DNA from: Aeromicrobium sp. IC_218
GTDB lineage: Bacteria; Actinomycetota; Actinomycetes; Propionibacteriales; Nocardioidaceae
DNA length: 64,000 bases
NCBI RefSeq assembly: GCF_004336805.1
Contig: NZ_SJXM01000008.1
Location: 1 to 64,000 of the forward strand
Direction of reading: 5' to 3'
A model generated the notes under the pieces. That model worked only from the letters and a program-made list of their open reading frames with translations. It was not told the DNA's origin and did no database searches. The position numbers and the translations under genes were made by a program. Positions 50,161-55,427 of this stretch are shown here, piece after piece (position 1 is the first letter of the stretch; each line of letters starts with the position of its first letter).

Positions 50161-51861
50161 ATGAGCGGCACGCACAGCTTCGACCACGACGTGGTCGTCA
50201 TCGGTTCGGGATTCGGCGGCAGCGTCGCGGCGCTGCGCCTGGTCGAGAAGGGGTACTCGGTGGCGGTCCTGGAGGCCGGCCGCCGGTTCCGCGACGAGGA
50301 CTTCGCGAAGAGCTCGTGGAGCCTGCGCGACTTCCTGTGGGCGCCGGCCGTCGGCTGCTTCGGCATCCAGCGCATCGACCGGCTCCGCGACGTCCTCATC
50401 CTGTCCGGCGCCGGGGTGGGCGGCGGCTCGCTGGTCTACGCGAACACGCTCTACGAGCCGCTGGACGCCTTCTACCGCGACCCGGCCTGGGGCCACATCA
50501 CCGATTGGCGCGAGGAGCTGGCCCCGTACTACGACCAGGCCAAGCGGATGCTCGGCGTCTCGGTCTACCCGCGCACGTCCCCGGCCGACGTCGTGATGCA
50601 GAAGGTCGCGCAGGACATGGGCGTGGCCGACAGCTTCCACTTCGCGCCGGTCGGCGTGACGTTCGGCGACCCCGGCACGTCCGTGGACGACCCCTACTTC
50701 GGTGGCGTCGGGCCGCAGCGCAACGCCTGCCTGCACTGCGGCGAGTGCATGACCGGCTGCCGGCACAACGCCAAGAACACGCTGGTGAAGAACTACCTGT
50801 TCCTGGCCGAGCAGGCCGGCGCCCAGGTGCACGCCATGACCACGGTGACGTCGGTGACCCCGCTGGCCGGCGGCGGCTACGAGATCGTCACCAAGCGCAC
50901 CGGACGTCCGTGGGCGGGGGAGCGGCGGATCACCGCCGAGCAGGTCGTCCTGGCCGCGTCCAGCCTCGGCACCCAGCGCCTGCTGCACCGGATGAAGGAC
51001 GACGGCCGGCTGCCGCACGTGTCGCCGCGCCTGGGCATGCTGACCCGCACCAACTCCGAGGCGCTGCTCGGGGCGATCGCCCACGAGGCCGACGTCGACT
51101 ACACCGAGGGCGTCGCGATCACGTCGTCCATCCACCCCGACGCGCACACGCACGTCGAGCCGGTGCGGTACGGCCGCGGCTCGAACGCGATGTCGCTGCT
51201 GCAGACCGTCCTGACCGACGGCAGCGGCCCGGTCGCGCGGTGGCGGGTGTGGCTGCGCGAGCTGTGGAGCCAGCGGCGCAACATCCGGCGGCTGTACGAC
51301 TTCAAGCACTGGAGCGAGCGCACGATCATCGCGCTGGTCATGCAGACGCACGACAACTCGATCACCACGTACACGAAGCGGGGGCTCCTGGGCCGGCGGC
51401 GGCTGACGTCCAAGCAGGGCCACGGCGCGCCGAACCCGTCGTTCATCGCCGAGGGGCACGAGGCCGTGCAGCGGATGGCGCACCACATGGGCGGCACCGC
51501 GGGCGGCACGATCGGCGAGCCGTTCGACGTCCCGATGACCGCGCACTTCATGGGTGGCTGCACGATCGGCGACTCGCCCGAGACCGGTGTCGTCGACCCG
51601 TACCAGCGGCTCTACGGCCACCCCGGCCTGCACGTCGTGGACGGCTCGACGGTCACCGCGAACCTGGGGGTGAACCCGTCGCTGACCATCACCGCCCAGG
51701 CCGAGCGGGCCCTGGCCCTGTGGCCCAACCGCGGCGAGCCCGACACCCGCCCCCCGCTCGGGGAGCCGTACCGCCGCGTGGCGCCCGTGACCCCGAAGAA
51801 CCCCGTCGTCCCCGTGGACGCGCCCGCCGCCCTGAGGCTCCCCATCGTCGACGTGTCGTAG
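50161..51861 (+). CDS. GMC oxidoreductase, cholesterol-oxidase-like (ChoD type)
   Basis: A 566-residue flavoprotein. The FAD dinucleotide fold is VVVIGSGFGGSVAALRLVEK; LILSGAGVGGGSLVYANTL is the second FAD contact; the cysteine-rich NACLHCGECMTGCRHNAKNT is typical of the ChoD-like group, and the C-terminal active-site part is GCTIGDSPETGVVDPYQRLY then VVDGSTVTANLGVNPSLTIT. Mycobacterial choD lies beside guaB3/guaB2, the same neighbourhood as here. Despite the name, such proteins may not oxidise cholesterol. A 36-bp palindrome, the left end of the repeat-bounded unit, begins 10 nt after its stop. Confidence 0.9.
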   Translation: MSGTHSFDHDVVVIGSGFGGSVAALRLVEKGYSVAVLEAGRRFRDEDFAKSSWSLRDFLWAPAVGCFGIQRIDRLRDVLILSGAGVGGGSLVYANTLYEPLDAFYRDPAWGHITDWREELAPYYDQAKRMLGVSVYPRTSPADVVMQKVAQDMGVADSFHFAPVGVTFGDPGTSVDDPYFGGVGPQRNACLHCGECMTGCRHNAKNTLVKNYLFLAEQAGAQVHAMTTVTSVTPLAGGGYEIVTKRTGRPWAGERRITAEQVVLAASSLGTQRLLHRMKDDGRLPHVSPRLGMLTRTNSEALLGAIAHEADVDYTEGVAITSSIHPDAHTHVEPVRYGRGSNAMSLLQTVLTDGSGPVARWRVWLRELWSQRRNIRRLYDFKHWSERTIIALVMQTHDNSITTYTKRGLLGRRRLTSKQGHGAPNPSFIAEGHEAVQRMAHHMGGTAGGTIGEPFDVPMTAHFMGGCTIGDSPETGVVDPYQRLYGHPGLHVVDGSTVTANLGVNPSLTITAQAERALALWPNRGEPDTRPPLGEPYRRVAPVTPKNPVVPVDAPAALRLPIVDVS

Positions 51862-51870
51862 GGGGTTGGG

Positions 51871-51906
51871 TCGTCGGTTTACCTGGTAGACCAGGTAAAC
51901 CGACGA
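51871..51906. repeat. 36-bp palindrome at the left end of the repeat-bounded unit
   Basis: Perfect 17-bp arms (left arm TCGTCGGTTTACCTGGT) around 2 nt. Its inner 32 bp recur at 53054-53085 with one difference. It lies directly after the oxidoreductase stop, so it may also serve as that gene's terminator. Confidence 0.9.
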
Positions 51907-51947
51907 ACGCCAGGAAAACTTGCCTGGTACCTGTCGGCTTACCTGGC
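51873..51947. repeat. left terminal inverted repeat (TIR-L), 75 bp
   Basis: Reading inward, this 75-bp segment aligns without gaps to the reverse complement of 53011-53085 with about 12 mismatches by eye: 31 of 32 in the outer palindrome and 32 of 43 inside. Weak similarity (GGGTTG) continues outward by about 10 bp. Its inner edge is 2 nt from the stop codon of the enclosed gene. Confidence 0.85.
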
Positions 51948-51949
51948 TT

Positions 51950-52924
51950 CTACGCCGGAGTGGAGTACCAGCGTCGCGAGCGCTCCAGCCCGTGCCGGAT
52001 GCGTGCCGCCGTCCGAGCACGGACGTCCGGATCGAGGTCGTGCCAGGTCCATCGCGTCATGCCCAGCCCGGTCTCCCTGATCCGGTCCTCGCGGGCCTTC
52101 TCGGCCACGAGCATCGCGACCGGGTCGGAAGACCACGGGTTCTGGCGGCCGTACTTCACGAGGCCGTCGAACTCTCCGACGTGGCGCCATTCGAGCCAGC
52201 CCGCGTCCACGATGCCGGCCAGCCCGTCGGCGTCGTGGATCGGGACCTGACAGACGGGTCGAGGCAGTCCTTGCTCCCAGCAGAGGAACAGGCTGCGCGC
52301 CTCACCCGCGCTGTGACACCCGGCGTCCGACAGGCTCAGACCGAGGCGCGCGCCGCGAATGCCGCGGAGCTGGCCGTGCCGCCGAGCGCGAGCAGCGAGG
52401 TCGTCATCGGTCGTCGACCCGTGGTGCAACGCGCTCGACGCGACGACCATGGCTCCCTCGACGCCGGCGAGACAGGCCGTCTCGACCACAGCCCGGGACA
52501 CCGGCACGACAGGGACACCACCGACCAGCACGACCTCACCGTCGTCGAGCGGTCCCGCGTGCTGGACCACGCCAGCCTCGATGCGACCGGAACGTCGTCC
52601 CCGGGACGTCACGTGGACGCGTCCGAGGTCCACGCCGTGCAGGTCGAGCCCGTGGACGGCTGCGGCTGAGGAATGGGACAGCACGAACCCTTCTCCCAGC
52701 CGGTGCAACGTCGCGCGCGACACGATCAGGAGCCGCCCGGTGGCTGACGCCGATCGCCACACCTGGGCGGGTACATACGTGCCGTGACGGGGACGCACAA
52801 GCAGGCCATGACGGATGCCAGCGCGCAGCGACGAGTCGAGCCAGCCGAGAGCGAGCGCTTGTCGCCTCAGGACGTAGCCACCCTGGCGCGCAGCGAGTGC
52901 GAGAAGGTCCTCCATGCGCTGCAC
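51950..52924 (-). CDS. AbiEi-like wHTH protein with C-terminal endonuclease-like domain
   Basis: A 324-residue protein. Residues 1-55 (MEDLLALAARQGGYVLRRQA, GIRHGLLVRPRHGTYVP) match the AbiEi-antitoxin-type winged helix. The centre (LSHSSAAAVHGLDLHGVDLG, HVTSRGRRSGRIEAGVVQHA) is shared with actinobacterial AbiEi-like proteins. The C-terminus (about 225-324), with GEFDGLVKYGR, EKAREDRIRETGLGMTRWTW and HDLD, resembles Vsr/DUF559-type PD-(D/E)XK nucleases. No AbiEii toxin partner adjoins, so it is solitary. ATG at 52924; another at 52915. By eye its third codon positions look less GC-biased than its neighbours'. Possible roles are defence, toxin-antitoxin or mobility; none is demonstrated. Confidence 0.8.
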   Translation of the reverse strand: MQRMEDLLALAARQGGYVLRRQALALGWLDSSLRAGIRHGLLVRPRHGTYVPAQVWRSASATGRLLIVSRATLHRLGEGFVLSHSSAAAVHGLDLHGVDLGRVHVTSRGRRSGRIEAGVVQHAGPLDDGEVVLVGGVPVVPVSRAVVETACLAGVEGAMVVASSALHHGSTTDDDLAARARRHGQLRGIRGARLGLSLSDAGCHSAGEARSLFLCWEQGLPRPVCQVPIHDADGLAGIVDAGWLEWRHVGEFDGLVKYGRQNPWSSDPVAMLVAEKAREDRIRETGLGMTRWTWHDLDPDVRARTAARIRHGLERSRRWYSTPA

Positions 52925-53010
52925 GGTGGCATCTCGCCCGAGGGCAACGGCGGAGCGTGCGGCGTCCTGTGGGCGGGAGGTAGAAACGACTCGGCTGGGG
53001 ATGGACGTCC

Positions 53011-53085
53011 GCCAGCAAAGCCGTCAGGAACCAGGAACGTTTGCCGGGCTTCTGTCGGTTTACCTGGTCAACCAGGTAAACCGAC
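53011..53085. repeat. right terminal inverted repeat (TIR-R), 75 bp
   Basis: Mirror copy of 51873-51947. Its outer 32 bp (53054-53085) are a palindrome with 15-bp arms GTCGGTTTACCTGGT and complement around 2 nt. It begins 86 bp upstream of the enclosed gene's start codon, so that gene's promoter lies between gene and TIR-R. Confidence 0.85.
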
Positions 53086-53284
53086 CACCTCAACCCACCC
53101 CTCACCACGCAGCAGAGCCCGGCCGGGAGGGAGGTCTCGGACCGGGCTCTGCAGGGCATCCGGGCTGAGCCGGGTGCCTGATCCAACGGGAGGGAGAGGT
53201 TGTCAGATCACCCCGTCCAACGACCGGCCTCGCGGCGCGGTTACGGCCGCCGACCGAGAAGTTCGGCCCCGATAGACTGCCCCG
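53086..53284 (+). other. guaA upstream region with an isolated hairpin
   Basis: Non-coding. A perfect 11-bp stem GCAGAGCCCGG (53112-53122) pairs with 53142-53152 around a 19-nt loop. It looks like a terminator but no plus-strand gene ends nearby except the oxidoreductase 1.25 kb away, so it may be the original oxidoreductase terminator displaced by the inserted unit. The whole 360-bp gap from 52925 holds only TIR-R, this hairpin and the guaA -10. Confidence 0.5.
53273..53278 (+). promoter_or_regulatory. -10 hexamer of guaA (leaderless)
   Basis: TAGACT, identical to the guaB hexamer and also 6 nt before the start codon (GTG at 53285). Both GMP-branch genes thus share the same start architecture. 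Confidence 0.5.
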
Positions 53285-54850
<1,566 letters not shown>

Positions 54851-54857
54851 GCGCGGC

Positions 54858-55427
54858 CTAGGCGTCCTCGGGCGCCGGGTCGCCGTAGGTCGCGAGGGCC
54901 TCGACGTAGCGGCTCCCGACGTCGATCCGCGTGACCTCCCCGTAGCCGAACACGCGCACCTCGGGGTGCTCCCACGCGCCCTCGGAATCGATGAACCGGA
55001 GCTCGAGTTCGTCCTCGCCGAGTGCGAAGACGTGCCCGACCATCATCGGAGCGTCCTTCTCGTGCTCGAGGTGGAACGCGATCATCGGGCTGGTCGCGCT
55101 CGCGATCTCCAGGACGTCGCGCGTCCGCGCGTCCTGAGGCAGGGCAACGTGCCGCGGCTGGTGGCCGACGCCGGCGAGGACACGCTGGACGTATCGCCAG
55201 CGTCCGTCCTTGCGCACCCGTGTCACGTGCTTCGGCCGGACGAACACGATGCCGTCCGGGAACAGCCCGTCGTCGAGGCACTCGACGGCGACCCACCGGC
55301 GGGTGACGGCCAGGACGATGCCGTCGACGTTCCCGTCGTGGACGCGGTCGCGCTCGAGGCGGACGGGACGTCCGCGCCGCTGGGCACGTTCGAGGCGGTC
55401 CAGGACCCGGCGACGCGTCTTCTTCAT
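54858..55427 (-). CDS. protein of unknown function
   Basis: A 189-residue soluble protein, Arg-rich at the N-terminus (MKKTRRRVLDRLERAQRRGR) and mostly beta-rich afterwards, with two repeated small-barrel-like parts: VDGIVLAVTRRWVAVECLDD / IVFVRPKHVTRVRKDGRWRY and MMVGHVFALGEDELELRFID / VRVFGYGEVTRIDVGSRYVE. The repeat of a regulatory-strand pattern suggests two SH3/Sm-like barrels. I recognise no family. CAGACT lies 7 nt before the ATG, supporting expression. Confidence 0.75.
   Translation of the reverse strand: MKKTRRRVLDRLERAQRRGRPVRLERDRVHDGNVDGIVLAVTRRWVAVECLDDGLFPDGIVFVRPKHVTRVRKDGRWRYVQRVLAGVGHQPRHVALPQDARTRDVLEIASATSPMIAFHLEHEKDAPMMVGHVFALGEDELELRFIDSEGAWEHPEVRVFGYGEVTRIDVGSRYVEALATYGDPAPEDA

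Follow-up and report, generated by a model that had tools for sequence, protein, structure and literature searches.

A REPtron-like arrangement around an AbiEi-Vsr nuclease gene: a candidate small mobile element recurring across actinobacteria

Why is a single gene of Aeromicrobium sp. IC_218 enclosed by long inverted palindromic repeats, with no transposase gene inside the unit? The unit lies in the window analysed here (the whole 64,000-nucleotide stretch at positions 1 to 64,000 of contig NZ_SJXM01000008.1, assembly GCF_004336805.1), where its nearest neighbours are a GMC oxidoreductase gene (choD) and guaA. Its only gene, called AbiEi-Vsr below, codes for a protein with an AbiEi-like N-terminal part and, joined to it, a nuclease of the Vsr/I-Bth0305I fold. 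An initial annotation of this DNA had read the unit as a mobile cassette. We favour, with a probability of about 0.6, a selfish element resembling the REPtrons of repetitive extragenic palindromic (REP) sequences and run by the AbiEi-Vsr nuclease in place of a HUH transposase. The arrangement, which recurs across actinobacteria with different palindromes, appears to be a tiny mobile element of a type so far undescribed.

The two ends of the unit are 75-bp arms which, with one of them inverted, are identical at 63 of 75 positions (84%) without gaps (Table 1). From the outside inward, each arm carries a palindrome (H1), a weaker palindrome (H2) and an additional half-site, an inner order not recorded in the initial annotation. 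H1 is perfect around a 2-nt centre on both sides, with 17-bp arms on the left (51871-51887/51890-51906) and 15-bp arms on the right (53054-53068/53071-53085), and the stop codon of AbiEi-Vsr begins 2 nt inward of the left repeat. The ungapped arms, the palindromic outer ends and the position of the stop codon had all been described in the initial annotation and stand as described. With up to three mismatches allowed, GTCGGTTTACCTGGT occurs five times in the 64-kb window, every time within the two arms; 100 shuffles of the window gave 0.65 occurrences on average and at most 3.

Both fold assignments bear out the proposal of an AbiEi-like part joined to a Vsr-like nuclease. Eight charged residues of the nuclease core (E208, D240, E251, K257, E275, R278, E279 and R291) are invariant in all 87 homologues compared; D253 is kept in 86 of them, H248 in just 37. 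A search by sequence for solved relatives found none. The ratio of nonsynonymous to synonymous substitution rates (dN/dS) is 0.12-0.32 in nine homologue pairs, so the gene is under purifying selection.

Homologues are widespread: a cut-off of E <= 1e-40 gives matches in 156 of 197 family genomes, and one of E <= 1e-15 in 85 of 118 from the class. The genome itself holds one copy, and 0-5 matches per congener were found, with 26-68% identity to the query (multiple matches within a congener were set against the query and not against one another). Seven of 30 loci in the genus share neither flank with another, the remainder falling in several neighbourhoods. The link between gene and ends was followed with a flank score, for which the left and right flanks of a locus were compared for their best inverted match, a score of 45 or more being a pass. 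Inverted ends, ~75-95 bp long, flank 27 of 28 homologue loci in the genus (median score 100; best match per genome, L041 and L044 having been dropped beforehand for truncated flanks) and 36 of 38 in the rest of the family (median 90). Windows displaced outward by 500 or 900 bp gave 0/28 and 0/38 at each shift, and none of 27 control loci flanking guaA reached 45 (maximum 29). In other families 24 of 43 loci pass, in 12 of 22 families; the count was 25 before removal of L263, which is of low complexity and whose reversed control scored 59, and it retains the borderline scores of L264 (45), L267 (45), L266 (48) and L237 (50). Among cross-family control pairs, 4/378 exceeded 45 (84-284; counted by score, without inspection) and the 95th percentile was 30. 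All 38 family loci were chosen by hand from the listed matches, as were 20 of the 43 from other families; the remaining 23 were taken as returned. An earlier scoring with a cut-off of 50 passed 37 of 41 loci and 3 of 300 cross-locus control pairs. Weaker homologues, in seven congeners without the close form, are also flanked in 9 of 10 cases, the lowest passing scores being 45 and 49. The palindromes are thus tied to this gene family in the genus, in the family and in other families. No match at E 1e-5 was found among 50,697 phage records and one among 72,556 plasmid records, so this is no evident plasmid or phage element.

These flanks bear on the reading under which the gene is named, that of a gene for a type IV (AbiE) antitoxin or for phage defence, with incidental repeats at its sides. 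The name has its grounds: AbiEi_4 is the sole Pfam match of the gene, PADLOC AbiEi models match as well, and some records call homologues AbiEi family antitoxin domain proteins. We nevertheless regard this reading as highly improbable, given that the inverted ends far exceed the controls, that the protein has an additional Vsr-fold nuclease domain, and that the unit holds no partner gene (an adjacent AbiEii nucleotidyltransferase gene was sought at the window locus only).

To get insight into the ends themselves, 37 of 56 ends, from 20 homologous elements, were aligned (A1). Eleven ends without a match to the anchor motif dropped out; 45 were extracted, and 8 of these were set aside as unlike. 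A1, the covariance model R1 and the half-site motif therefore cover GGTTT-type ends only. The consensus reads nCGGTTTACCAnG....CnnGGnAAACCG, followed by H2 around GGCAA..TTnCC and then GnTTGCCnnG. Each end carries five half-sites in the orientation -> <- <- -> ->, which read TTTRCCnnGG in the end type most frequent in the genus. Pair-preserving changes on both sides were seen at every one of the 11 pairs predicted for H2 and at 2 of the 5 for H1. Mismatches at the 16 predicted pairs are about equally often G-U (34) and A-C (25; binomial p 0.30), and in the inner H1 stem they number 2 and 17, respectively. As G-U is no commoner than A-C, the palindrome appears to act at the DNA level, and an RNA-level function of the ends was rejected. 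Rfam gave nothing at gathering score within 50500-54500, and no terminator-like sites were found within 51700-53400.

Across homologues, the sequence of the ends runs from CGGTTTACC types to palindromes that are entirely different (GTCACTGGGCACGGCAGATCTGCCGTGCCCAGTGAC, for example). The two ends of one element as a rule agree, while ends differ among elements: H1 differs at 2.6 of 28 positions within an element versus 9.4 of 28 between elements (17 elements), an agreement partly by construction because ends were located through their mutual match. At L266 (family f4), with its borderline score of 48, the homologue lies between GAGCAGACGTAAAAGCCCCCA... palindromes, an end sequence of an entirely different kind. 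A CCWGG target, as in Dcm-Vsr repair, was considered and rejected: CCWGG is present in the ends of this genome and, judged by eye, is not general in those of other elements, which carry TTTACCACGG, TTTACCCGG, TTTCCCCGG or unrelated ends.

The same repeats are also found away from the gene. A palindrome scan of the genome (up to three mismatches) gave 13 places, the gene's two ends included, and the covariance model gave 15, of which 2 are the gene ends and 13 are solo. The palindromes are therefore not confined to the gene; the initial annotation had itself named wide occurrence without the gene as an argument against a mobile unit. Of that reading, the discrete unit, the fold assignment and the gene-linked palindromes hold. 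The dispersed sites are intergenic and near gene ends (position judged by eye), and a symmetric H1-H2-H1 form is seen in some solo copies, such as that at C23:5685-5774. A second subtype in this genome, GGTTTACCTGGGGCCCCAGGTAAACC, occurs at C11:111486, C11:302393, C4:35897 and C5:25985 (L008, L009, L012, L013); most of its copies have a nearby CCCCAGGTCTGCAGACCTGGGG-like palindrome, and it is intermediate between the genome's main type and the sister-species type.

The model matches 40 of 49 genus genomes, with up to 86 raw matches. The median is 26.5 in genomes with a close homologue versus 0 in those without (split at E about 1e-40), and at least 5 raw matches occur in 33/36 versus 4/13. This contrast is not one of gene against no gene, because seven of the genomes "without" carry weaker flanked homologues. 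Raw counts also overstate sites (27 matches are 15 places in this genome, G000; 20 are 10 in G012), and a few per genome arise by construction. In G045, ten 80-bp copies picked from the best model matches are nearly identical and lie in ten unrelated contexts.

The solo sites speak more for a REP-like family, with a single nuclease gene in residence, than for regulation by the host. The regulatory alternative would make AbiEi-Vsr a host-useful DNA-binding protein that marks or regulates the chromosome through tens of palindromic sites and regulates itself via the upstream copy. It agrees with the purifying selection, with the position of the sites near gene ends, and with the binding of AbiEi-type proteins to inverted repeats in their own promoters, as given in PMC7319586. 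We consider it improbable all the same: the nuclease core is conserved, the same two-hairpin end also stands downstream of the gene, loci differ by lineage, sites vary in presence and turn over, and a close homologue is missing from 13 of 49 congeners.

Comparison of the choD-guaA site among relatives upholds the claim of a discrete unit. Among 28 other guaA loci fetched, choD adjoins guaA in 15 other congeners, the interval being 25-367 bp in 12 of them and 1.05-1.17 kb of other DNA in 3 (judged from 400 bases at each end; the close homologues of these three map elsewhere). In G023 and G010 (L166 and L170, respectively, in the interval) this is ~1 kb of other, apparently coding DNA, so the site has been entered by other DNA too.

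The sister species A. massiliense (G012) also carries an element between choD and guaA. In 100-bp blocks the two genomes are 89-100% identical in choD and guaA and 49-80% inside the element, with the drop at the palindromes. Synonymous divergence (dS) is 1.02 for AbiEi-Vsr versus 0.12 for guaA and 0.23 for choD. The two alleles therefore appear to predate the split of the species; from the sequences they look like the outcome of a replacement or of two arrivals, rather than merely of fast protein evolution.

Twelve of the 13 dispersed sites were examined against G012 (C5:25985, C11:390760 and G012 C1:58300 were left out of the alignments), and 6 are shared. At five of the six, the G012 copy is of the TTTCCCTGGGGCCCCAGGGAAA type, matching G012's own gene ends; the sixth, C17:263050, is of mixed type in G012 (TTTACCTGGGGCCCC). 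At four of the shared sites, identity was measured as 0.64-0.82 within the repeat against 0.86-0.96 for the flanks. Single copies also differ in presence: the ~88-bp copy at C4:35897 is cleanly absent from G012. At C11:302393, C3:66837 and C11:152290 the aligned G012 stretch lacks a matching repeat, yet shows no clean gap. At G012 C1:599534 (L208) a repeat copy lies between two genes, and an ordinary hairpin of similar length is found there in G000 (C11, L293).

Such changes at individual sites bear on another explanation, that of a free-standing homing endonuclease gene. The dispersed palindromes would then be cleavage sites kept alike by cutting and gene conversion; the protein would cut repeat-bearing or empty alleles, and the gene would be copied in through recombination. 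We hold this to be unlikely. The classical form needs one conserved target, yet the elements occupy many intergenic loci; sister species do not share all solo repeats, and homing alone makes no new solo sites.

How, then, could a REPtron-like element of this kind work? By analogy with AbiEi proteins and I-Bth0305I, binding to several half-sites and cutting would be expected: the former bind paired inverted repeats in their own promoters (PMC7319586) and the latter forms a dimer on a target almost 60 bp long (PMC3943268). The AbiEi-type winged helix would bind the half-sites, five copies per end, and the C-terminal Vsr/EDxHD-fold domain would cut DNA at the ends. Cutting followed by templated or joining repair may then copy ends into intergenic places as solo repeats, so that the protein would move or convert its repeats. 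The gene would remain at one or few places per genome, occasionally replaced by a diverged relative, and after such a replacement the repeats of the whole genome would turn over to the new sequence. Going further, we tentatively entertain, at somewhat less than even odds, a non-HUH class of REP-mobilising systems across the actinobacterial class, in which AbiEi-Vsr nucleases would keep up and spread two-hairpin palindromes of their own and takeover by a nuclease of new specificity would rewrite existing repeats by genome-wide conversion.

Several observations weigh against the REPtron-like reading. Convincing ends are lacking at 19 of 43 other-family loci. Co-variation of protein and ends is modest (Mantel r 0.30-0.37) and similar for all three protein parts, the tests for a winged helix that sets the palindrome being weak and without domain specificity. 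Gene and repeats do not always go together: G027 and G043 carry the gene with no repeat match, G031 with just 2, and G001 and G037 have 21 and 18 raw matches with weak homologues only. Repeat identity below that of the flanks is not decisive, as intergenic DNA diverges faster anyway, and concerted turnover rests on a single species pair. At C21:209910 the copy is missing from G012 as a replaced block, not a clean gap. No target-site duplication was seen by eye at the compared sites; at most of these, the choD-guaA site included, the relatives are too diverged for exact borders. Finally, the full unit was not seen jumping, and no recent multiple copies of the gene were seen.

Two further genomes carry repeats (12 raw matches in G005, 10 in G014), with no homologue at E <= 0.001 detected in either. 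They count against the same reading and would suit repeats of the miniature inverted-repeat transposable element (MITE) type, non-autonomous and moved by an unrelated transposase, with AbiEi-Vsr as passenger cargo; that solo copies far outnumber the gene also fits. We see little chance of this explanation, since the ends track the gene family through genus, family and 12 other families despite their changing sequence, the unit has no second gene, and Y1_Tnp (PF01797) was found in none of 49 genus genomes, a control search being positive in 5 of 14. A RAYT (REP-associated tyrosine transposase)-driven REP was rejected on the same absence. The possibility of a transposase elsewhere, raised at the outset, has thus lost its REP-type form; other transposase families were not searched.

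Table 1. Coordinates of the AbiEi-Vsr element and its parts in the window
Feature	Position	Strand	Remark
Left end of element (H1, H2, half-site)	51873..51947	+	63/75 identical to inverted right end
Covariance model R1 match on left end	51874-51951		E 5.9e-11; left end belonged to training set
Left H1, perfect palindrome	51873..51904	.	extends to 51871-51906
Left H2, imperfect palindrome CCAGG...CCTGG	51909..51928	.	H2 pairs covary across 37 ends
Left inner half-site GTCGGCTTACCTGGC	51933..51947	+	2 mismatches to half-site
AbiEi-like + Vsr/EDxHD-fold nuclease gene	51950..52915	-	321 aa from ATG 52915
Alternative start of AbiEi-Vsr gene	GTG 52924	-	would give 324 aa
Right inner half-site	53011..53025	-	>3 mismatches to perfect half-site; placed by arm alignment
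Right H2	53030..53049	.	arm alignment
Right H1, perfect palindrome	53054..53085	.	palindrome scan
Right end of element, upstream of AbiEi-Vsr gene	53011..53085	-	inverted match to left end
Covariance model R1 match on right end	53007-53084		E 5.4e-11; right end also in training set

A second sharply bounded divergent segment lies beside guaA at 54858-55427 (minus strand), a 189-aa open reading frame without Pfam match. Its blocks are ~55-73% identical in nucleotides to A. massiliense, the surrounding blocks being mostly above 85%.

No description of this gene family with palindromic ends was found among the listed open-access papers, subscription papers, preprints and ISfinder lying outside that coverage. 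Novelty rests on an enzyme type not tied to REP-like repeats in the searched literature; the architecture alone is of the REPtron kind. Here an unrelated nuclease has a REP-like arrangement across many actinobacterial families, under an AbiEi antitoxin name that suggests another job. If this is true, the annotation of a widespread gene family would be corrected, a large share of named AbiEi antitoxins could belong to it, and there would be an explanation for where the palindromic repeats between actinobacterial genes come from. The elements would also offer a natural series of protein-palindrome pairs for rules of DNA recognition, and the sister-species pair makes concerted repeat turnover directly testable.

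The element shares features with several known systems. As regards TnsA of Tn7, the unit is without TnsB or TnsC partners and the match is no stronger than many unrelated rows. Terminal inverted repeats recall insertion sequences; in contrast to these, the sole gene is AbiEi-Vsr, with no transposase gene inside the unit, and no set of near-identical full copies was seen, this genome having a single one. With AbiE type IV systems and Rv2827c the protein shares the AbiEi-type DNA-binding antitoxin fold, but a nuclease domain is added and repeats stand on both sides of the gene and genome-wide. The nuclease fold of the C-terminal domain is that of I-Bth0305I and Vsr; here it is joined to an AbiEi-like part, H248 is kept in a minority of the homologues, and the setting is an intergenic palindromic element, not an intron, phage gene or repair operon. 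Unlike in Vsr mismatch repair with Dcm, CCWGG is, as judged by eye, not the general target context.

The closest likeness in arrangement is to the REPtron. Two papers (PMC6006769, PMC3733652) link REP sequences to HUH tyrosine transposases. In these systems there is as a rule one RAYT gene per repeat type, with inverted REPs at the gene and the same REPs between genes, and the RAYT gene is not described there as having been seen to move as a unit. Here, too, inverted palindromic repeats stand on both sides of a gene and recur dispersed through intergenic DNA. As the defining HUH transposase is lacking, we do not file the element as a REPtron: its gene encodes an AbiEi-like part and a Vsr/EDxHD-fold nuclease where the REPtron has a HUH tyrosine transposase, and its ends, of ~75-95 bp, consist of two palindromes and an extra half-site.
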